Origin: Clostridia bacterium
GTDB taxonomy: Bacteria; Bacillota_A; Clostridia; UBA1212; UBA1255
Assembly: GCA_017522515.1 (NCBI GenBank)
Contig: JAFWZH010000192.1
Span: forward strand, 1 to 11,372
Reading direction: 5' to 3'
DNA: 11,372 nucleotides
Within the stretch, counting starts at the first letter, position 1, and each line of letters opens with the position of its first letter. Shown here piece by piece: positions 983 through 11,372 of this stretch. The translations under genes and the position numbers were made by a program. Under the pieces are notes generated by a model. It ran no database searches. It worked only from the letters and a program-made list of their open reading frames with translations, and had not been told where the DNA came from.

Positions 983-990
983 TAACTTTG
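983..990 (+). promoter_or_regulatory. Probable Bacteroidales-type promoter (-7 box)
   Basis: TAACTTTG at 983-990 matches the Bacteroides sigma-factor -7 consensus TAnnTTTG exactly. The -33 TTTG element is not evident at the expected distance, which is common in AT-rich DNA. Transcription would start near 997, giving a leader of ~30 nt before the TTG start at 1029. It is the only good promoter candidate for the four-gene operon. Confidence 0.55.
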
Positions 991-1028
991 AGGTGTAATT
1001 TATCAAATACTAACCGAATAGATAAGCA

Positions 1029-2381
1029 TTGGATAAGAATAATGAAATAAAAAAACTCATAGAAACATTTCATTCTGAATACACTCAGAATGGAGAGCCT
1101 ATTCGTATCAATTTTCGAGAGATCGTAACAGAGTTAAGTTCAACTGAACGTTATTCTCATCTAATTCATTCTTATCCTGCAAAGTTACTTTGTCATATTC
1201 CATATTTTTTTCTACAAACAGACTATTTCTGTCCTGAAAATGGAGTTGTTCTAGATCCATTTTGTGGAACAGGAACAGTCATGTTAGAAGCAAATATTAG
1301 TGGCAGAAATGCTAAAGGTGCAGATGCTAATCCCCTAGCATGTTTAATCTCTAAAGTAAAAACGACCTACATAAAAAAAGAAGATTTACAAAAAACACTC
1401 GGGACTATTATATCTAGAGCAAAACGATTTAATACTAATGAATGCATAGATACATCGTCTGTATCTCGCTGGTTTTCAAAAAGCACAATTTCGCAATTAT
1501 GGCATTTGGAATGTGCAATAAAAAAAGTAAGAGATACAAAACAGCAGGATTTCTTTATGATGTGTCTTTCTAATTTAGTAAAGAAAGTTAGCTTTGCTGA
1601 CCCAAGTATTTCGGTCCCCGTAAAATTAAATCCTGAACGTTTTGCACAAAATCCAGAAAGAATGGAGTCTGCAAAATTTAAGTTAAAGACCTTGGAAAAT
1701 ATTGATGTATATGATAAGTTTGAAAATATATGTCAATTAAATATAAATCGGATTGAATCTCTTAAGGATATATATTCTAATGGAATAACATCTGAGATTA
1801 TATCTAACGATGCAAGATTACTAACAAAAGAGATTGGAAGCACAGAAATATTACAAGACAAAAGTGTTGATTTGATTTTAACATCACCACCATATGCTGG
1901 TGCTCAAAAATATATTCGTTCATCGTGGCTTAATTTATATTGGCTTGGCACAAAGAACAGTGAGGACATTCGTCTCTTAAATAAGCAAAATATAGGTAGA
2001 GAAGATTATCATAAAGCGGATATGTTTAGAGTCATAACCAGTATTCAAGCTGCAGATGATGTACTAACCTCCCTATATGATGAAGGGAAAAATGAAAGAG
2101 CTTTCATTGTGGGAAACTATCTGAATGAAATGAAATCTGCCATTGATGAGTCTGTTAGAGTTCTAAAAACAGGTGGATATATGATTATTGTCATAGGGAA
2201 TAACACTGTATGCGGTCGTCCATTCGATACACAAGACTATTTAACAACATACATAACATCAAAAGGATTAAGGTTACAATTTAAGTTAATAGATGACATT
2301 AAATCATATGGCTTAATGACAAAAAGAAATAAAACAGCAAGCCGAATCTCTTGTGAATGGGTGTTGGTTTTTAAGAAATAA
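1029..2381 (+). CDS. Site-specific DNA methyltransferase (SPPY type), first gene of putative defence operon
   Basis: A 450-aa amino-methyltransferase that would transfer a methyl group from S-adenosylmethionine to a base in DNA. Motif I, the SAM-binding loop, is DPFCGTGT at residues 76-83, preceded by HSYPAKLLCHIP (48-58), the usual motif-X-like lead-in. The catalytic motif IV is TSPPY at 285-289, with a late GGYMIIVIGNN strand (~385-395). SPPY rather than NPPY/DPPY is commonest in N4-cytosine methylases, but an N6-adenine product cannot be excluded. About 200 residues lie between motifs I and IV and may include target recognition. The start is TTG: an in-frame TAA at 1023-1025 excludes an upstream start, and the next in-frame ATG would remove motif I. 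It is followed after 8 nt by the PRTase gene. With no nuclease in the operon, it is not a plain restriction-modification methylase; a marking, self-protection or sensing role is inferred. Confidence 0.88.
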   Translation: MDKNNEIKKLIETFHSEYTQNGEPIRINFREIVTELSSTERYSHLIHSYPAKLLCHIPYFFLQTDYFCPENGVVLDPFCGTGTVMLEANISGRNAKGADANPLACLISKVKTTYIKKEDLQKTLGTIISRAKRFNTNECIDTSSVSRWFSKSTISQLWHLECAIKKVRDTKQQDFFMMCLSNLVKKVSFADPSISVPVKLNPERFAQNPERMESAKFKLKTLENIDVYDKFENICQLNINRIESLKDIYSNGITSEIISNDARLLTKEIGSTEILQDKSVDLILTSPPYAGAQKYIRSSWLNLYWLGTKNSEDIRLLNKQNIGREDYHKADMFRVITSIQAADDVLTSLYDEGKNERAFIVGNYLNEMKSAIDESVRVLKTGGYMIIVIGNNTVCGRPFDTQDYLTTYITSKGLRLQFKLIDDIKSYGLMTKRNKTASRISCEWVLVFKK

Positions 2382-2389
2382 TTATATCT

Positions 2390-3331
2390 ATGGATTTCCT
2401 AAATTCGAAATATGGCAAACAAATTGAGGTATTGAACTCTACAATATGGGAAAACAGAGTTCAAGGCCCAAAGATTATGGAATGGTTAGATAACTTTGAC
2501 GATGACAATGAGAAAAACTACGCTTTGTATATGCTGTCAAGACTAATGTATTTTAGCTCGTCAAGTATTAGAAATCTACTAAAGGCTCTGTATAGAGATC
2601 TATATAGATATCCCATTATTGAACAAATTAGAAAGGACAACAACAACACATTGGATCCTAATATTATAGAGCCTTCTTTTGAAAAAGAATTAATGGCGAC
2701 ACGTTTTTTGGGAGTTGGCAATCCCTCTGAAAGTGGAGTACACTTATTATACTATTTTAGACAAGAAAACAAAATTCCTAAAAACTTGTTCATAAATACG
2801 GATGACATTGTTGAATATGATGAAAATGGGAACTGCAAATTGAGGGATTCATATAAAGATGTTAAACATTATGTATTTATTGATGATTTATGTGGCAGTG
2901 GTGATCAAGCGACTTCAAATACTTCCAATGTCAAGCGTTGTGTACAACACTTGCGTAATATAGTAGAAGATGCTAAAATTTCATATTTCATGATTTTTGG
3001 GATGTCTAAAGGTATTCAAGTTATACGAAATAGCGGATTATACAATCAAGCTAATGCAGTTGTAGAACTCGATGAAAGTTATCGATGCTTTAGTGAACAA
3101 TCTAGATTTTTTGACGATGATAAATACAAACGAGCAGAGGCAAAGTCTATAGCATATAAGCATGGATATAAGTTGATGGGGTATCCGCAAATTTCATTAG
3201 GGTTTGGTGATTGTCAACTTTTATTAAGTATGCATCATAATACCCCAGATAATACCTTGCCGATTATTTGGTATGATGAAGACAATACAATTTGGAAACC
3301 AATTTTCAAACGATATAATAAAGTATATTGA
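2390..3331 (+). CDS. PRTase-CE-like phosphoribosyltransferase (conflict-system family)
   Basis: A 313-aa protein whose core reads as a phosphoribosyltransferase. A hydrophobic strand runs into a PRPP-loop-like motif, HYVFIDDLCGSGDQAT (residues 160-175). This is the 'VxxDDxxxSG' form of the classical PRTase loop, in which the two aspartates contact ribose and the glycine/serine turn holds the 5'-phosphate. Upstream, RFLGVGNPSESGVHLLYYFR (105-124) is a conserved family block that probably shapes the substrate pocket. The alpha-helical first ~100 residues may be an interaction domain. No signal peptide or membrane span is seen. The pattern fits PRTase-CE, a family named in comparative-genomic work on prokaryotic conflict systems and seen beside ORC-CDC6-like ATPases. 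The substrate is unknown; by analogy with PRTase toxins in other defence systems it may deplete PRPP or modify a nucleotide or nucleic acid. Spacing is 8 nt after the methylase and 1 nt before the ATPase start. Confidence 0.75.
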   Translation: MDFLNSKYGKQIEVLNSTIWENRVQGPKIMEWLDNFDDDNEKNYALYMLSRLMYFSSSSIRNLLKALYRDLYRYPIIEQIRKDNNNTLDPNIIEPSFEKELMATRFLGVGNPSESGVHLLYYFRQENKIPKNLFINTDDIVEYDENGNCKLRDSYKDVKHYVFIDDLCGSGDQATSNTSNVKRCVQHLRNIVEDAKISYFMIFGMSKGIQVIRNSGLYNQANAVVELDESYRCFSEQSRFFDDDKYKRAEAKSIAYKHGYKLMGYPQISLGFGDCQLLLSMHHNTPDNTLPIIWYDEDNTIWKPIFKRYNKVY

Positions 3332-3332
3332 T

Positions 3333-5324
3333 ATGATAAATAATCCTTTTGATATTACAAAAGCTGTAGATTATACAGATGATGAAATATATCGTTATTG
3401 GGTTGATATAAAGGAACATGGCTTTTATAATTTAATAAAGCCAGAAACTCTTATGCCAATGATTATAGTTGGTAGTAAAGGGAGTGGCAAAACTCATATA
3501 ATGAAATATTTCTCATATGAACTCCAAAAGATAACTAAACCCATTAATGAGGGTTTAGCAAAGGATAAATTTATAGGAGTATATATTAGGTGTAGTGGAT
3601 TTAATGCAGATAAATTCAGTGGGAAAGGTGTATCTGATGACATTTGGGCTACATTATATGCGTATTACTGGGAATTATGGATTGGCGAACGAATAACATC
3701 TATTTTGATAGACTTAAAACAAAATAATCTGATAGTTGATTTTAACGAATCAGACGTTGTTGATAGTGTGTTAAAATTATTCTCGAAACAAGGGATAAAA
3801 TTCAATACTCTCACAGAATTAAGCGATTATTTCCTTCTATTACAAAGGAATGTAGAGTATGAGGTACAAAATTTTATTTTTCAAGGGAAGAAAACCCCTA
3901 TTGTAGAGGTATTATTACCCATTGCAAAACTATCATATGAATACCCTGCTCTTTTAAAAGAAAAAGTTCCCTTCTTTAAAGACAAATATATACTTTATTT
4001 AATTGATGAGTTAGAAAATTTTTCTGAGACGCAACAACAACTAATTCAAACACTGTTAAGAGAAAAACCTGTCGCCTGCACTTTCCGTGTAGGAACACGC
4101 CCGTATGGTATACGCACATATAAGACATTAGGAGGCGTAGAGGAAAATCATGATGGTTCAGAATTTGAGAAAGTTGTTCTAGATGACTTTTTACGCGAAT
4201 TACAGGAAGATGACTACGAAAAATATATAACCGAAATTTGTGAAAGACGACTATACAATAGCGGATTGACTTTGTATAAGGATTTTAAGATTGAAGAGCT
4301 CATAGAAGATCAAACAAATGAAAACACTCTTGATAAAGTATATAAAAAGAAAGACATCCAATCTCGTGCTTACATACATCGATTGCGTAGCAATCTAAAA
4401 CATATAAGAAATAGCGGTTTGTCAGAAAAGGATATTGATACAATTATCAATAATATAACTTTCACTGATGATTATATCATTGAAAGAACAAATGTTGTAT
4501 TGATTTATCGACGTATCAAAGATAAAAGCAAAAGTTTGATTCAAGATTCCGAAGCGATAAATACATCTGCAAGACTTTATTATGAAACAAAGTCAAAAGA
4601 GACTGAGCAATTCAAGTATTTGGATAAATATAAACAAGATATTATTGATGCTATTGCTAGAGAAGGACGTGTTGATATACCTTATTATGGATTTAAGAAA
4701 CTTGTAAAACTTTCATGTGGTATACCTCGTACAATATTACGTTTATTAAAGGCTGCATATAATACGCAATATTTTGAAAGTGGAAAAATCCCATTCGTGG
4801 AAAATCGCAAATTAACCGTTAAATCTCAAAAGGCTGCTATTGAAACAACTTATAATTGGTTTTTTGAGGAAAACAGAATACCTTCATCTAGTCAAAGTCG
4901 AGCTGTTGATGCTGTTGTGCGTTTAGGAAATTATCTGCAATCATTAAGATTTACAGATCTTCCACCACAGTGTTCTATCAATATCTTTTCGATATCAAAA
5001 GAAAGTATGTCAGAGAAAGCAAGAGAGGTTTTTGAATTATTAGAAAGGTATTCATATTTTGTTAAAACTGATGAAAGAAGAGTAAAGAATACCAACATAA
5101 AAAACTCTGTATATATGCTAAATTCCATTTTAATTCCCAAGTGGGAATTGTCTTTGGCAAAAAGAGGACTAGTTGCTCTTTCTTCTGAAGATGCAGAAAT
5201 GATTTTTAATCCAGAAAAGCATATGGATTATAAAGACTATATAAATAAAAAAGTAAAACAATACATATATCCGTTTAGTCAACAAGAGGAACAGGCAGAC
5301 TTTTGGGGATTACAACTATTTTAA
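3333..5324 (+). CDS. ORC-CDC6-like AAA+ ATPase
   Basis: A 663-aa P-loop ATPase. Walker A is GSKGSGKTH at residues 47-55, Walker B is the hydrophobic strand ending LIDELENF (223-230), and FRVGTRPYG (~251-259) is a sensor-1-like strand. The N-terminal MINNPFD...AVDYTDDEIYRYWV matches the 'NPF' opening of ORC-CDC6-type conflict ATPases. The remaining ~370 residues are largely alpha-helical, with a lid and a likely winged-helix/partner-binding region. The expected role is an ATP-driven switch or DNA-bound platform that controls the effector. I chose ATG 3333 because it lies 1 nt after the PRTase stop, giving translational coupling, and because the family opening begins there. An ATG-ATG at 3273/3276 would add 20 residues and overlap the PRTase gene by 59 nt. 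It ends 4 nt before the next gene. The P-loop call is certain; the subfamily is likely. Confidence 0.82.
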   Translation: MINNPFDITKAVDYTDDEIYRYWVDIKEHGFYNLIKPETLMPMIIVGSKGSGKTHIMKYFSYELQKITKPINEGLAKDKFIGVYIRCSGFNADKFSGKGVSDDIWATLYAYYWELWIGERITSILIDLKQNNLIVDFNESDVVDSVLKLFSKQGIKFNTLTELSDYFLLLQRNVEYEVQNFIFQGKKTPIVEVLLPIAKLSYEYPALLKEKVPFFKDKYILYLIDELENFSETQQQLIQTLLREKPVACTFRVGTRPYGIRTYKTLGGVEENHDGSEFEKVVLDDFLRELQEDDYEKYITEICERRLYNSGLTLYKDFKIEELIEDQTNENTLDKVYKKKDIQSRAYIHRLRSNLKHIRNSGLSEKDIDTIINNITFTDDYIIERTNVVLIYRRIKDKSKSLIQDSEAINTSARLYYETKSKETEQFKYLDKYKQDIIDAIAREGRVDIPYYGFKKLVKLSCGIPRTILRLLKAAYNTQYFESGKIPFVENRKLTVKSQKAAIETTYNWFFEENRIPSSSQSRAVDAVVRLGNYLQSLRFTDLPPQCSINIFSISKESMSEKAREVFELLERYSYFVKTDERRVKNTNIKNSVYMLNSILIPKWELSLAKRGLVALSSEDAEMIFNPEKHMDYKDYINKKVKQYIYPFSQQEEQADFWGLQLF

Positions 5325-5328
5325 TGAA

Positions 5329-6270
5329 ATGAATTTTACATATTTATATAAGCACAGTTATTCCTCACTTGATGAACTTTCTTCAATAGAGGAATATGAC
5401 TATTACATATCTTCATTTATTAATTCTGAACGAGTTATAGTTCCTCCAACAAAGATAAAAACCAAAAAGAACATATGGATTGTAACCAAAGAAGAAGAGA
5501 ATAATAAATTTTTAGAAGGTTATTGTAAGATTATCATTGATTCAGACGAGAATTACGATATTATGATGGAAATGGTCAATAATATCGATGTTAATGATAA
5601 AGAAATATGTATTGATGCCACAGGATTTCTAATTCCAGATTTGCTGTTTTTAATTAGATATCTAAACTCAAAAGGAGTTAACCATCTTGATATTATATAT
5701 ACAGAACCATTAAAATATAAAAAAGCTGAGGATACCCAGTTTTCTGATAACTTTTATGAAGTAAAACAGATTTATGGTATGTCTGGAACTCATATATCAA
5801 AAATGGACAATGATATGCTAATCATTGCTGCTGGATATGACCATAGCCGTATTGTTGATGTTGCGAATAAAAAGAAAACTGCAAAAAAGGTTCTGTTATA
5901 TGGCTTCCCCTCAATAAGTCCAGGCATGTTTCAAGAAAATGTGTACAGAGCATTTGGAGCAGAACCTGCATTAGGGTCTGAATGCTTTAGAGATATGGAT
6001 ATGAATATATATGCACCAGCATATGATCCTTTTGTTACAGCTCAAATTATAAAGGAGTATGTGCAAAATAATCCGTATACAAATTTATATCTAGCCCCTT
6101 TATCAAGTAAACCACAAGCGTTAGGCCTCGCACTATTCTTTTTATGGGAAAAGGGCTACCAAAAGAACATTAGTATCATATACCCGATGTGTAAAAATTA
6201 TCTAACAGATAATTCTGAAGGAATTGCAAGAATATGGAAATATAGCTTTATACTTCCACCTCAAAGTTAA
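5329..6270 (+). CDS. Orphan Rossmann-like protein, last gene of putative defence operon
   Basis: I do not recognise the family of this 313-aa protein. Its strands and helices read as two Rossmann-like halves. The first has a strand and turn at KEICIDATGF (91-100), a long helix, then LDIIYTEPLKY (120-130). The second opens with MLIIAAGYDHSRI (163-175) and KVLLYGFPSISPGMFQENVY (187-206), and ends with NLYLAPLSSKPQALGLALFF (252-271), a helix, and ISIIYP (281-286). No Walker A, nuclease motif, signal peptide or membrane span is visible. 'DATG' after a strand, and a strand followed by 'PLSSKPQALGLALF', faintly recall CARF/SAVED ligand-binding proteins, but this is a loose resemblance, not an assignment. 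It starts 4 nt after the ATPase stop and is followed directly by the operon terminator, so it is very probably a functional partner: adaptor, sensor or effector. Confidence 0.8.
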   Translation: MNFTYLYKHSYSSLDELSSIEEYDYYISSFINSERVIVPPTKIKTKKNIWIVTKEEENNKFLEGYCKIIIDSDENYDIMMEMVNNIDVNDKEICIDATGFLIPDLLFLIRYLNSKGVNHLDIIYTEPLKYKKAEDTQFSDNFYEVKQIYGMSGTHISKMDNDMLIIAAGYDHSRIVDVANKKKTAKKVLLYGFPSISPGMFQENVYRAFGAEPALGSECFRDMDMNIYAPAYDPFVTAQIIKEYVQNNPYTNLYLAPLSSKPQALGLALFFLWEKGYQKNISIIYPMCKNYLTDNSEGIARIWKYSFILPPQS

Positions 6271-6274
6271 AAGC

Positions 6275-6309
6275 TTTCGGCGTTCACCCTCAACAAGTGA
6301 ACGCCGAAA
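6275..6309. terminator. Strong bidirectional intrinsic terminator
   Basis: A perfect 13-bp GC-containing stem (TTTCGGCGTTCAC at 6275-6287, GTGAACGCCGAAA at 6297-6309) with a 9-nt loop is followed by TTTT on the plus strand. It begins 4 nt after the stop of the last plus-strand operon gene and lies just beyond the stop of the Res remnant on the minus strand, so it can serve both converging transcripts. GTGAACGCCGAAA and its surroundings are richer in GC than the operon, so it may have come with the lost type III gene. Confidence 0.9.
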
Positions 6310-6314
6310 TTTTA

Positions 6315-6548
6315 TCAGCCTATCGCATTCATCCCATCTATCAAGTCTTGATAGGTAGCCACCTTGTGGTACTTTACATTGGCGGTGGAGATGGAGTTGA
6401 ACAACTTCTCTGCACAATCAATTTTGGCTCGTTCGATGGCTGACAAGTCCATTGACGACATTGAACCTTTAGTCTCGGCTACGAAGAAGATGTGCTTCGC
6501 ATTATTCAAAATGGCATTACCATCTGCTATATGAGATTGTATGACATT
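6315..6548 (-). pseudogene. 3' remnant of a type III restriction endonuclease (Res) gene
   Basis: Seventy-seven codons read on the minus strand from 6548 to a TGA at 6315-6317. They contain HIFFVAETKGSMSSMDLSAI and continue ERAKIDCAEKLF...VKYHKVATYQDLIDGM. This is the very C-terminus of type III Res subunits: VAETKGS carries the E-x-K of the PD-(D/E)xK nuclease core, followed by the helix with its KxxCA pattern and the closing strand. A complete Res is ~900-1000 aa, so more than 90% is missing, including the helicase; the upstream catalytic aspartate is not evident. There is no proper start (only an internal TTG at 6509). It is in frame with the preceding large gene, separated only by that gene's TAG at 6549-6551. 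Composition is more GC-rich than the neighbours. I read it as a scar left when newer cargo replaced an older type III system at its 3' end. Confidence 0.75.
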
Positions 6549-9500
6549 CTACATTGGTTTGATTTTGGATTCAATGAAGGCTATCTCTGATTCATCAAGT
6601 CCATACTTGGCATACAGCTGTTGGTCTATTTCTGCAACCGATTTACTCCAATCTATATCTGAATCGCTCGTAAAATCCTGAAGAGGTACATATTTATATG
6701 CACCTTGCATAGCATTCTGCGTATTCTTTAATATCGCAACTAATAGGTGGAAAAATTTTGTTTGCATATATTTCACCACGTTTTTTGCTTCTGCAATAAT
6801 TTCAAAGGGACCTACTATAAGGTATGTTTCATAGCAACATGATGGATTGCTAACGATAAGCGGAGTTAAAGAATCTTTTGAAGTATCTCCTATACCCCAT
6901 GCTTTAGGGATTAGCACCTTTACTTTATCAATCCATTCTTTATTTCGTTTTACCGATTCTTTTTTAACAAAGCCAATCCCTTTTGTCCTCCATCCGTGAT
7001 AATAAAACTCCACCCCATCCTTTATTGGTTTCAGTGATGGATTTACTTTTACTCTACGCATTGTACCTTCTATTCTAGAGTCAAAGCCAAATGGGTCATT
7101 AGGACTTACAATAGTAGAGAAACTACTTTCTCCTATATTTTGCACCTTTTGTAGAATATCTAAGTACTTTTGATATCTAACATAAACTTCAGTGTGTTGA
7201 TTTTTTAAGGCTCTTGTCTCTGAGATGATTTCATTCCCACAATGGATATTGACATTACAATCTCCATTGTGCTCTGTATCTCTTAAGAAATAACATACTC
7301 CACCTTTTAGTTCAACGCTTTTGCCGAAACAGTCTTCTGCATTATTATAGTCGTGCAAAGTAGAGATATGTTTATCTTCAAGCATAGTATTTCTAAAAGT
7401 TTCTAATTTGCCTCCTTGAACAGCGAACCATCTTGATGGCATAATCATATTGATCAAGCGTGGTGATAATGATTTTGCGACAGTAACAAAATCATCATAT
7501 ATAGCCGTTCCACTACTTTTATTTAGTCCACCTCCATTGCTCTTTTGATACGGCGGATTGCCTACTATGACATCAAATTTCATATCTTTTAATCTATTTA
7601 TCTTTTCTTCGTTATTTTCTTTAATCAAATCATAGGTTGTAAAATCTGCTGTGACATTTTCGACGGGCATCCCCAACAATTTGTATATCTTACGAGTAAA
7701 CTCATAACAAAGTTTAGATGTTGGCAATGAGTATATATTATTCTTAACAGCCTCATTGATGGTTGCAAATCTGTTATAGATAGCATAAGCAAATTCTCCC
7801 TGCTTTGACGCAATATCTAAGAACTTAACTTCTTCAATATTCTCCAAATCAGGCAACATTGCAATCATATCCTTTGCAACGTTCTTTGGTGTCACAATCT
7901 CAGAATCTGACATTCTACCAAACTGAGTTAAAGCAACTTCTGCTCGTTTGATAGGCTCCATTGCCTCATCGCTAATAAGATTATTTATGTTCTTAATCTT
8001 ATAATCAAGTTTGCTGTGGATAAAGTGAGAGCACTTACTATGCAATGCATCTAATTTATCTCTATCGAGTCCTAAATTTCTTGCAATACGTTTATTGTCA
8101 TCATTGGCTGACAACACATCTATAATATCTCTTAAGTTATCAACTTTGGATTCAGTTAAAAAGGCAAAGAACAAGATTTGGAGATAGTACGTTTGCAGTT
8201 TTTTAGCTAACTCTTTTGCTTCATCTTGTGAGGGTTGAGGTTGAGTTTCTGTGCCATCTCCACCCTGTGAACCGTTAGCCTCATTTGGTTGGTCTCCTTC
8301 ATTGGCTTCCGCCTCTCCATTATCGGGAGTGTCTATATCTTCACCCTCTCCTTCAATTGGTTTGAATGTAATACCTTTTTGGGAGTCAATAGGTGCAAGG
8401 TCTCTGATAATAGAGAGTATTTCGGTATCAGTCAATATGTTATCATCCACGGGAATATCAGTTGCCTCATCTATCACACTCCTGCTCTGCGAATATTCAC
8501 GCACAGCATCCATAATGTTAGCACTTGTTACCTGATGGAGTTTGTCTTTATTCAAACATATAATTGGTGATACTTCCAACTCTCTATTAAGACGCGCTTC
8601 TAACTTCTCATTTCCATCAGCATCTGTATTTGCATTATAGAATTGAGATTTTAACTCCTGTAAACGGAACATTCTATCTACATCAAAATCTACTAATAGA
8701 GTTTGAGGTTTCTTGTTATATTTAATAGTTCTACCTTCATCATCCTCGTATGTGACAACATATTGATTCTGCAATCGGAAAATAGCTTGGTCATATTCCT
8801 GAGGAGATGCAGTATCTTTCAGGAATATCATAGTATCCCACTCCTCGACAGTATTTCCTGTTAGCATACGATTGACTGTAAGAGTAATAGTTTTTTTACC
8901 CTCACTTTCAGATCGTTTAATTTTAGATTTAATGGTCTCTACTGATGGATATGATGTATTACCATCAACTCCTGCAATGTTGATAATCTCATATTGAGAC
9001 AGATTATCAAACTTCTTAGGATTATTTGTTATCAACTCCTGCATTGCATCACAAGAGGCACGATATGGTAATACAAATACCATATGATGGCACATCTCAC
9101 CCTCCTTAATCTTATCGTAATTCAAGAATGAGAAGATATTTTCATCCTCTTGAGAACCATCAATAGCTCTTAATAAATCACAAACCTCTGATTCATTCTC
9201 AAATTTCTTGTAGTTACCAGCAGCGTCTTTCTCTATTGATTGAGGTCTAAGCAACGCTGAAAGAGTCGCTGTTTTACCCAACTCTTTAAGTTGTTTTATC
9301 TTTTGTAGGGATGATTCATTTGGAGTAAAGGCAAAACGAATCATTTGAGGGAATCCATAATATGGATTCTCCCACTCATCTTCGGGTTTCTCTTTTTTAT
9401 TGTTGTCGTCTATCCACTTGTCTGACTCATCAATAATATCTGTGAATTGACAGAATGAAACAATATCATCTTCTGAAAATTCACTACTCATCAAGATACG

Positions 9501-10556
9501 ATATGGAGTTCCTGACAAATGAAGAGTAATCCTTGCTTTGAGGCACTTTTGAACCTCTTTGTCAATATCTTCTACAGATTCTATATCATTTTGTTTTAAC
9601 TCATTTTTGATTTGAGCCTTAGTCAATCCTGCATTTTGTAGCACTTTACCATATTCTGCTGCTCTTGCACCATAATGCGTCTCATCAACAATGAGTAGGT
9701 CTATTTGACTATCAAATACTTCTTTATGCTTCTCCTTTATTTCCTCTCCCTGTAGGTCTTGTAATGTCAGGAAAATAGCAACTTTTTTACCACTCTCAAT
9801 GTTAGATTTGATTATATTCTCATCTCTTGACAGCTGTCCTCCATCAAGAAATACAAAACCATCAAAGTTGGCAATCTTCTCAACAGTCTTCTTCCACTCC
9901 TCCTTCACATCAGCCTTTCCTGATACAATTACCACTATTTTGGCATCCATTGCATTAGCACAACACATTGAAGTAAAAGATTTACCAAATCGCATTACTG
10001 CATACATCAGCAATTTTGTACGACCCTTATCTTTTGCCTCCATAAAAGCTTCAACAGCTTTTTCTTGATTGGGACGTAGATTATATGGCTCAGTGTCTCG
10101 CTCGTAATGAGGAATTTCGGGTAGATGTTGCTCGTTATATAGTTGATATATACCTCCTCCTTGTTTTACATCTTGTTCTATATGCCTAAAAGCATCTTCA
10201 AGATTATCAACATTTATATCTTTGAAAAATTCATTAGAGTAATACAAACCAGCAGGCATATCTTCCCGTTGTAAACGTTCTTTGCCCAATTCTCGCTCTA
10301 AATAACCATGAATAGCATAGTCTCTGAAGAATTTATCACCTACTTTGGCTGCACGACTGTATTCTTGCGTAAGGTCCTGGTAATGTTTACGCCACTCAGA
10401 TAGACGTATTTTAACAGGGCGGACCGTATCTCCAACCTTCCAGTATTTAGGCACTGTATTAGTAGAGAAGGCATAGATATGAGGATATACTCTTCCTATT
10501 ATCAAATTCTCTAATACAGTAGTATTCAAACTCGTTTTTAATTTACCAACTTCCAT
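6549..10556 (-). CDS. GIY-YIG-like nuclease / SF2 helicase / N6-adenine methyltransferase fusion (Eco57I-like restriction-modification enzyme)
   Basis: A single 1335-aa chain with restriction and modification modules. Residues ~26-90 resemble a GIY-YIG/T5orf172 nuclease: HIYAFS, YWKVGDT, RPVKIRLSEW and a later GYLERE glutamate. An SF2 helicase/translocase follows: motif I MRFGKS (188-193), DETH (291-294), SGTP (348-351) and QAIFRLQ (590-596). A Pro/Glu/Gly/Asn-rich acidic linker (~734-782) leads to a methyltransferase: TPKNVAKDM (~889-897), SAM loop FLDIASKQGEF (912-922), and catalytic GNPPYQ (999-1004), the N6-adenine signature. The C-terminal ~300 residues are likely target recognition and end YKYVPLQDF...IESKIKPM, a normal Eco57I-type ending, so the gene looks complete. 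I chose ATG 10556 because it lies 5 nt beyond the upstream stop with a GTAGG-like site before it. An upstream GTG or similar start near 10610 would add 18 residues of poor similarity and overlap the neighbour. Motif I deviates from the usual GxGKT. Confidence 0.88.
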   Translation of the reverse strand: MEVGKLKTSLNTTVLENLIIGRVYPHIYAFSTNTVPKYWKVGDTVRPVKIRLSEWRKHYQDLTQEYSRAAKVGDKFFRDYAIHGYLERELGKERLQREDMPAGLYYSNEFFKDINVDNLEDAFRHIEQDVKQGGGIYQLYNEQHLPEIPHYERDTEPYNLRPNQEKAVEAFMEAKDKGRTKLLMYAVMRFGKSFTSMCCANAMDAKIVVIVSGKADVKEEWKKTVEKIANFDGFVFLDGGQLSRDENIIKSNIESGKKVAIFLTLQDLQGEEIKEKHKEVFDSQIDLLIVDETHYGARAAEYGKVLQNAGLTKAQIKNELKQNDIESVEDIDKEVQKCLKARITLHLSGTPYRILMSSEFSEDDIVSFCQFTDIIDESDKWIDDNNKKEKPEDEWENPYYGFPQMIRFAFTPNESSLQKIKQLKELGKTATLSALLRPQSIEKDAAGNYKKFENESEVCDLLRAIDGSQEDENIFSFLNYDKIKEGEMCHHMVFVLPYRASCDAMQELITNNPKKFDNLSQYEIINIAGVDGNTSYPSVETIKSKIKRSESEGKKTITLTVNRMLTGNTVEEWDTMIFLKDTASPQEYDQAIFRLQNQYVVTYEDDEGRTIKYNKKPQTLLVDFDVDRMFRLQELKSQFYNANTDADGNEKLEARLNRELEVSPIICLNKDKLHQVTSANIMDAVREYSQSRSVIDEATDIPVDDNILTDTEILSIIRDLAPIDSQKGITFKPIEGEGEDIDTPDNGEAEANEGDQPNEANGSQGGDGTETQPQPSQDEAKELAKKLQTYYLQILFFAFLTESKVDNLRDIIDVLSANDDNKRIARNLGLDRDKLDALHSKCSHFIHSKLDYKIKNINNLISDEAMEPIKRAEVALTQFGRMSDSEIVTPKNVAKDMIAMLPDLENIEEVKFLDIASKQGEFAYAIYNRFATINEAVKNNIYSLPTSKLCYEFTRKIYKLLGMPVENVTADFTTYDLIKENNEEKINRLKDMKFDVIVGNPPYQKSNGGGLNKSSGTAIYDDFVTVAKSLSPRLINMIMPSRWFAVQGGKLETFRNTMLEDKHISTLHDYNNAEDCFGKSVELKGGVCYFLRDTEHNGDCNVNIHCGNEIISETRALKNQHTEVYVRYQKYLDILQKVQNIGESSFSTIVSPNDPFGFDSRIEGTMRRVKVNPSLKPIKDGVEFYYHGWRTKGIGFVKKESVKRNKEWIDKVKVLIPKAWGIGDTSKDSLTPLIVSNPSCCYETYLIVGPFEIIAEAKNVVKYMQTKFFHLLVAILKNTQNAMQGAYKYVPLQDFTSDSDIDWSKSVAEIDQQLYAKYGLDESEIAFIESKIKPM

Positions 10557-10561
10557 AAAAC

Positions 10562-11372
10562 CTACTTGTTTAATAGAGAAACAAATTTTATAGCTTTCCC
10601 CACTGACCAATCCATGATTTCACAATAAATTCCGTTATGCCTATGTATATCACCTCTGGCGCATCCTTCACATATCTTTTCATGGGTTGTGGAACCTCCA
10701 AACAAATCTTGTGATAAAGTTTGTTCTATTCGACAACTGTTAGGAACTATGCCTTTCAAGCCATCCATCTGCCAAACATTCCACGAAATAATCTTGGCTA
10801 TACATTTAATTGACGCTGCAAGTGGGCGTTTGCCAAATCTCAACTCGTAGTTTTCAATAAAAGTATAGAGCATCGCTTCACGAGCAAGCAGTAGATTGTC
10901 ACCCTGCCACTCAAAGCCATATATACTTTTATAGGCTTCTTGTGCTGCCGTTAGCCACTCGCCAGGTGTGTTAACATTCTCATTGATTACGCGTAACTTG
11001 CGATCAAGAAGTCCTATGCGTTTTTCAACGGGAATTAACTCGCCAGTGGTCACATCGTAACGGCTAGTTATGTATGGAGCTTCTCCACATGTAATCTCCA
11101 TGCGATTATCTCTCACATAGTCTTTCCAAGTTTTACCCTCTGGGAACTCAATGGGGTCAGTGGTGGGAGTCCACGAATGCACACCATTCTCTTCTACTTC
11201 AATATTGAACACACCCTCGCGTCCAAACCAAGCATTGTCAATCAGATTATTCTGGGCATTGCATACCCAAGACGGAGTAAATACCTCTGCCATATCTCTT
11301 GAACGAGCAGTCTGCTGAAGCCTATTCTTCAAAACGCGAGGTATAATTTTATTGTTATCGCAAACTTTCTCG
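10562..11372 (-). CDS. 'Restriction endonuclease subunit M'-like protein, 5' end outside window
   Basis: The minus-strand frame is open to the right edge (visible residues begin EKVCDNNKIIPRVL), so the gene is cut off at its 5' end; a TTG at 11332 is internal. The conserved block RSRDMAEVFTPSWVCNAQNN (~11251-11310) resembles the TP-containing motif-X region that opens many N6-adenine methylases. It is followed by a conserved linker-like middle (TWKDYVRDNRMEITCGEAPY, LLDRKLRVINEN). I see no SAM loop or NPPY motif, so it is probably not an active methylase alone. The C-terminal part holds cysteines and histidines in CEGCARGDIHRHNGIYC (~10616-10666), a possible metal site. Proteins of this kind are commonly annotated 'restriction endonuclease subunit M'. 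It ends 5 nt before the fusion enzyme's start, so the two are co-transcribed and likely form one complex; specificity or assembly is the inferred role. Confidence 0.7.
   Translation of the reverse strand, partial: EKVCDNNKIIPRVLKNRLQQTARSRDMAEVFTPSWVCNAQNNLIDNAWFGREGVFNIEVEENGVHSWTPTTDPIEFPEGKTWKDYVRDNRMEITCGEAPYITSRYDVTTGELIPVEKRIGLLDRKLRVINENVNTPGEWLTAAQEAYKSIYGFEWQGDNLLLAREAMLYTFIENYELRFGKRPLAASIKCIAKIISWNVWQMDGLKGIVPNSCRIEQTLSQDLFGGSTTHEKICEGCARGDIHRHNGIYCEIMDWSVGKAIKFVSLLNK

Follow-up and report, generated by a model that had tools for sequence, protein, structure and literature searches.

The models of the CARF6 receptor family reportedly originate from Makarova et al. 2020, and nucleotide-targeting effectors of the PRTase-CE, HD-CE, and calcineurin kinds are said to go back to Nicastro et al. 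2023. In Pfam, ORC-CDC6-like, PRTase-CE, and HD-CE proteins are consecutive entries (PF24389, PF24390, and PF24391), and PADLOC holds CARF6, including a kinase–AAA fusion of it (CARF6--CARF_STK_AAA). Here, we analyze a four-gene operon that encodes a DNA amino-methyltransferase (MTase), a PRTase-CE protein, an ORC-CDC6-like ATPase, and a CARF6 protein. It lies on contig JAFWZH010000192.1 of assembly GCA_017522515.1, named Clostridia bacterium, and the whole stretch of 11,372 nucleotides is called the window below. Because of these database entries, the operon belongs to a predicted kind, at least parts of which others have predicted. Among the matches listed by a text search of the literature, the available text contained no CARF6 or PRTase-CE, and ORC-CDC6-like appeared in a bacteriophage exclusion (BREX) paper alone (PMC12839542); in most of these matches, "HD-CE" is a term of another meaning. 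One further candidate, DS-32, gave an NCBIfam match of 26 bits against a cut-off of 250 and is not in the main text of DefensePredictor (PMC13092281); nothing was concluded from it.

Several known systems are close to this one. The operon has the same receptor family (PDLC01914) as the kinase–ATPase–CARF fusions, which are sister architectures, but here the receptor stands alone and PRTase-CE occupies the effector slot. The PRTase is related to the effector of type III-A retrons (it matches PADLOC PRTase_III-A), whereas no reverse transcriptase (RT) domain was found among the window proteins and no Rfam match was obtained; ATPase–CARF6 is present instead. An ORC-Cdc6-clade ATPase alongside DNA modification recalls BREX and Ssp, although a profile search within the window found no PglZ among its proteins. 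Unlike restriction–modification, the operon has no matched cognate endonuclease: in profile searches none of the four proteins matched any nuclease family, and the adjoining type IIG-like gene is a separate, convergent unit. Clover, which would be similar as a nucleotide-pool defense and whose dTTP infection cue is a precedent for the thymidine link considered below, uses a dGTPase and a nucleotidyltransferase, and the available portion of its text does not mention CARF (PMC12265719).

Identity of the four operon proteins

The four genes are all on the plus strand with intergenic gaps of 8, 1, and 4 nucleotides (Table 1), in line with the single tight operon seen in a preliminary description made from the DNA alone. 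That description had left the fourth protein as an orphan Rossmannoid, a label that no longer applies. The protein matches the PADLOC CARF6 family with 285.9 bits over residues 1–307, and an AlphaFold2 model of it can be superposed on CARF proteins with Z up to 12, as expected of a CARF fold. After VIA re-alignment, the best structural alignments are to cyclic-oligoadenylate-binding proteins. On the strength of the family match and the model, the protein is probably a tandem-CARF nucleotide receptor. In PADLOC, the window protein and 16 sister proteins all matched CARF6 models; CARF6 calls beyond these rest on our own profiles.

The ATPase scores 366 bits against PF24389 (gathering score 27 bits), with Walker A residues G47, G50, G52, and T54 and Walker B D225 kept in 30–31 of 31 aligned sequences. 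The preliminary description had made it both sensor and switch. The role of switch is retained as probable; since the fourth gene is a CARF6 receptor, sensing is probably common to CARF6 and the ATPase. The PRTase-CE protein matches PF24390 with 220 bits (gathering score 27 bits), and the acids of its phosphoribosyl pyrophosphate (PRPP) loop, D165 and D166, are kept in 29/29 aligned. In the MTase (PF01555, 57 bits; PADLOC MTase_II, 146 bits, by profile searches), motif I DPFCGTG precedes motif IV TSPPY, and residues D76, G80, and G82 together with SPPY 286–289 are kept in all 25 aligned proteins. The motifs named earlier (DPFCGTG, TSPPY, FIDDLCGSG, GSKGSGKTH, and LIDELENF) were thus all found and are largely conserved among homologues.

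Exchangeable predicted effectors around an ATPase–CARF6 core

We searched four genome samples, with group names inferred from the center genomes, with PF24389 at E ≤ 1e-10. Matches were found in 18 of 1541 genomes (counted per search), four of which are the operon-bearing centers. CARF6 follows the ATPase in 13 of the 14 non-center genomes, the exception being G677. In these 13, the position ahead of the ATPase, or fused to it, holds a kinase in five, PRTase-CE in three, a metallophosphoesterase in two, and HD-CE in one, and has no assignment in two. Because CARF6 is so regularly kept and PRTase-CE is not, ATPase and CARF6 form the constant pair, probably a sensor–switch, and PRTase-CE is an exchangeable probable effector. 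The metallophosphoesterase that fills the PRTase-CE slot in sister loci is calcineurin-like and carries PF24408.

A wider compilation of 48 loci, which includes plasmid and other loci, contains CARF6 in 46. By effector, it divides into PRTase-CE (32), kinase (6), metallophosphoesterase (5), HD-CE (2), and unassigned (3), a tally that overstates PRTase, as searches with the window ATPase or its close relatives supplied 28 of the 32 PRTase-class loci; the 14 non-center genomes are the fairer sample. The uncalled slots are those of L093 (a ParA-like fusion), L097, and L124 (cut). In L093 (8076–10916), the ATPase bears a fused N-terminal ParA/MinD-like domain and is followed by CARF6 and an MTase-like gene, possibly representing a further effector or carrier class. 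Left out of the set were near duplicates (H3, H5, H10, and H12), partial hits (H16 and H17), hits to the kinase part only (H19 and H20), H62, H64–H66, and L072, for which no partner was found. L061, L073, and L082 are repeats of L003, L018, and L021, and the short stretches L031–L060, L062–L066, L074, L075, L083–L091, and L098–L111 were replaced by longer ones where followed.

The PRTase version itself is a coherent unit. Searching genomes with ATPase peptides of close relatives gave 20 named loci from five phyla: Bacteroidota, Bacillota, Pseudomonadota, Actinobacteria, and Bdellovibrionota (an Oligoflexales metagenome-assembled genome). The order MTase–PRTase–ATPase holds in 20/20 (in L012 the contig start cuts the MTase), and CARF6 comes next in all 18 loci that are long enough, L009 and L022 ending within the ATPase. 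Distance matrices of the four proteins correlate at 0.82–0.91 across 21 operons, window included, and none of 2000 permutations reached such values. In the PRTase version, the four genes are therefore co-inherited in a fixed order. The four-gene unit of the preliminary description is thus supported by the loci found with close-relative patterns. It is weakened by the searches not anchored on this operon, in which the exact composition with the window's MTase family recurs in only one of the 14 non-center genomes (G575) and PRTase-CE in three.

PRTase-CE likewise occurs apart from this core. In the Bacteroidota sample, 14 genomes out of 345 have a PRTase-CE match at E ≤ 1e-10, and two of these carry this operon type. 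Eight of the 12 other loci were tested (L117, L119, L121, and L123 were left out): four have a NADAR neighbor, three have a neighbor with an RT domain, and one is a fusion to AAA domains. Together with the slot swaps, these partners indicate that receptor core and effector are independently exchangeable, and that the effector is itself shared with retron-type loci. The replacement of PRTase-CE by other enzymes in sister loci, its RT neighbors, and the naming of PRTase as the usual effector of type III retrons in the available part of PMC12548924 all support the earlier suggestion that PRTase-CE is the likely effector of the operon.

The NADAR-neighbor loci (L113, L114, L115, and L116) may represent a second system, with NADAR as a possible antidote or partner of PRTase-CE. 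More distant PRTase-CE relatives, with about 25% identity among the matches listed (plasmid hits H30 onward), include 127 Klebsiella plasmid records; 149 plasmid records match PRTase-CE, 133 of them conjugative.

The MTase varies as well. Besides the window MT family, Dam/D12, an N6_Mtase after CARF6, and one annotated cytosine MTase were observed. That many loci have a DNA MTase of one family or another next to them would suit another mechanism, in which the ATPase scans DNA for the MTase mark and fires the PRTase on unmarked DNA, with CARF6 as a modulator or off-switch. Modification reading has been proposed for the ORC ATPases of Ssp and BREX; in the available text, a ring around DNA is predicted for the ORC/Cdc6 ATPases of Ssp (PMC10853773), and BrxC anchors BREX (PMC12839542). 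Yet the family, place, and presence of the MTase vary around a constant CARF6, and L076, L077, and L080 have no profile-recognized MTase beside the ATPase (by eye, a methylase-like frame can be made out on the opposite strand of L077). We regard this mechanism as unlikely.

Candidate ligands and thymidylate-gene neighbors

In the reading that we favor, the operon represents one form of an immune system with swappable effectors. CARF6, a predicted pseudo-dimer of two CARF domains with invariant R35, D96, and K261, would bind a nucleotide that arises or is altered during infection and would signal to the ATPase, which would form or reshape a ring, perhaps on DNA. The ring would release or activate the PRTase, which, via its PRPP loop, may attack nucleotides or PRPP metabolism and so stop the infected cell, with the MTase marking self DNA and helping to hold the ATPase off. 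We infer each of these steps (nucleotide binding by CARF6, relay by the ATPase, attack on the nucleotide pool by PRTase-CE, protection of self by the MTase) and consider the scheme moderately likely.

Enzymes that commonly make CARF ligands are largely missing from the operon genomes, as judged from drafts and with SMODS as the sole cyclase family covered. Over cut-off, Cas10 (TIGR02578 and TIGR02577) was found in none of the 21 draft genomes (those of the PRTase class plus the window genome, G000), either as Csm1 or as Cmr2, and SMODS was found in three. Matches below cut-off occurred in three genomes for Csm1 and in one for Cmr2; in G396, a single short frame close to the beginning of a contig matches both and is likely a Cas10 fragment. 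G000 has no Csm1, Cmr2, or SMODS match, which sets the operon apart from type III CRISPR accessories, and profile searches found no CD-NTase among the window proteins, in contrast to cyclic-oligonucleotide-based antiphage signaling systems (CBASS). CARF6 could instead serve type III CRISPR (Cas10) or CBASS as an accessory receptor, sensing cyclic oligonucleotides that these produce elsewhere in the cell, as its predicted CARF fold and its best model alignments, to cyclic-oligoadenylate-binding proteins, might suggest. With so few Cas10 and SMODS matches in these 21 draft genomes, we consider this highly improbable.

The gene neighborhoods point to a possible thymidylate link. ThyA, ThyX, and dUTPase queries were picked after such genes had been seen beside the operon and were run at E < 1e-5, with the same queries on the distal flank as a control. 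Thirteen of the 48 loci have a ThyX, ThyA, or dUTPase_2 gene no more than 2.4 kb away, and in nine of the 13 it sits directly before the first operon gene and on the same strand. The distal flank of these loci (264 kb, as against 288 kb of proximal flank) yielded none; a weaker distal match (L003 17296–17985 to the L026 dUTPase, E 3e-4) was not counted. ThyX is linked in L015, L023, L027, L028 (broken), L029, and L030, in the kinase locus L081, and in the HD-CE locus L125; ThyA in L006, L008, and L014 (2.4 kb off, on the other strand, with a dCMP-deaminase-like neighbor); and dUTPase_2 in L025 and L026. At least five distinct configurations can be counted.

In all four searchable genomes, the linked enzyme comes on top of another thymidylate synthase (two ThyA in G395 and G397; one ThyA and one ThyX in G403 and G404), and four operon genomes in which no such gene is linked have a single one (G392, G393, G402, and G407, with an extra 18-bit match below cut-off in G402). 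The RHR motif of ThyX is kept in 7/7 copies inspected and the Cys–His of ThyA in 3/3. Loci with PRTase, kinase, and HD-CE all show the link, which may therefore be a property of the sensor core. In two ThyA-linked Bacteroidales loci, a DUF4365 gene lies a few bases past CARF6 (L006 10990–11949, by Pfam; L008 10992–11798, similar by tblastn) and is a possible sixth gene.

As the core has these additional thymidylate genes beside it in three effector classes, what is sensed might be tied to the dUMP/dTMP/dTTP pool. In its fullest form, ATPase–CARF6 would be a new CARF pathway without Cas10 or CD-NTase. CARF6 would monitor a thymidine-type nucleotide or the balance of dUMP, dTMP, and dTTP, any of four interchangeable effectors would fire when a phage takes over that pool, and the trigger level would be set, or the host rescued, by dedicated second thymidylate synthases or dUTPases. 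We find this extension doubtful. A real thymidylate link would give a concrete answer to what CARF proteins sense without a cyclic-oligoadenylate maker. What had been called an orphan is probably a CARF receptor, and the loci point to one receptor core that is combined with at least four effector enzymes.

The same neighbors would fit nucleotide metabolism, and operon copies are found on plasmids (10 records) or near integrases, relaxases, and transposases, as might be expected of a non-defense module, whether a mobile-element stabilization or addiction cassette or a nucleotide-salvage operon near defense genes. Against such a role, PRTase-CE adjoins RTs and is a named retron effector (available part of PMC12548924), and HsdR, TIR, SIR2, or NACHT genes occur near several loci; we judge it quite unlikely.

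Several points weigh against the immune reading that we favor. The defense role is deduced from the genes, and the identity of the ATPase from its sequence. The operon contains no ligand-making enzyme of known kind, and there is no thymidylate gene in the window itself. Plain Foldseek on the CARF6 model places unrelated rows at the top with low TM-scores, and CARF rows lead only after VIA re-alignment. In G677 (L072, 50.7 bits), outside the 48 loci, the ATPase match has no partner by our own profiles. Loci used for building the profiles match them by construction, and two of the six kinases (L070 and L081) score just under the Pfam cut-off. Finally, the ThyX loci, 8/13, are all from Hyphomicrobiales, so that independent events are fewer than 13.

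Distribution, flanks, and origin of the contig

The operon family is rare yet widely scattered. At E ≤ 1e-10, PF24389 matches 7 genomes out of 395 in the Bacteroidota sample, 3 out of 385 in the alphaproteobacterial class sample, and 7 out of 369 in the gammaproteobacterial class sample, each count including the center; among the 392 genomes of the window's own phylum sample, G000 alone is over cut-off. At E ≤ 0.001, 114 of these 392 genomes match, and the matches below cut-off are mostly Walker-A-sized. A second PF24389 match in G000 (C139, L002) scores 25.7 bits, or 27.7 bits with neighbors, and has no partner genes by our own profiles. Operon DNA had no DNA-level match in the plasmid collection, 151 stretches of viral contigs matched a pattern with none encoding a relative, and a PDB sequence search gave nothing useful.

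Table 1. Features of the window
Feature	Position	Strand	Remarks
Weak promoter candidate TAACTTTG	983-990	+	Bacteroidales-like octamer
MTase gene	1029-2381	+	TTG start; DNA amino-methyltransferase (N6_N4_Mtase)
PRTase-CE gene	2390-3331	+	Probable effector
ORC-CDC6-like ATPase gene	3333-5324	+	Probable switch
CARF6 gene	5329-6270	+	Tandem-CARF, probable nucleotide receptor
Terminator-like hairpin	6275-6309		Perfect 13-bp stem, 6275-6287/6297-6309, between convergent units; strand not assigned
Endonuclease-domain fragment	6315-6509	-	64 aa; PF19778, 38.5 bits; behind type IIG-like gene
Type IIG-like enzyme	6549-10610	-	1353 aa; PADLOC 1201 bits
MTase-like protein	10562-11371	-	339 bits

Most of what had been said of the surroundings stands. 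The terminator corresponds to a perfect inverted repeat behind CARF6, and the adjoining restriction locus comprises the type IIG-like and MTase-like genes and an endonuclease fragment that is likely a restriction-gene remnant, all convergent with the operon. G+C is 0.29–0.33 in each 500-base step from 1001 to 6000, compared with 0.49 at the GH92 end and 0.34–0.39 in the restriction locus. The proposed promoter fares less well: the octamer is present and resembles what we take to be a Bacteroidales-like consensus, but it is one of eight such octamers on the plus strand, not rare in the window, and sigma-70-like sites are at chance level (37 seen, 34.1 expected).

Upstream of the operon, positions 503–1028 are without an open reading frame of 60 aa and contain a 24-nucleotide inverted repeat (540–593), three direct 14-mers with 11-nucleotide spacing (690–725), and two copies of TTATACACACTTAT. 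In G000, the corresponding contig (C71) has 6770 bases, fewer than the window. The bin is 2.7 Mb with 7.9% contamination, and its relatives are 0.4–1.8 Mb. Because GH92 is absent from all 19 relatives and the sole GH92 match of the bin is on the window contig, this contig may be a Bacteroidota contaminant of a Clostridia bin.

Two operon copies on Rhizobium plasmids look decayed, as frames are broken for ThyX, MTase, and ATPase in L028 and for the ATPase in L030. The record of L026 (CAKLQF020000018.1), titled "Acinetobacter phage MD-2021a", resembles a bacterial chromosome rather than a phage, with efp, rpmE, cstA, and kamA among its genes; it holds a dUTPase–PRTase–ATPase–CARF6–MTase variant of the operon.

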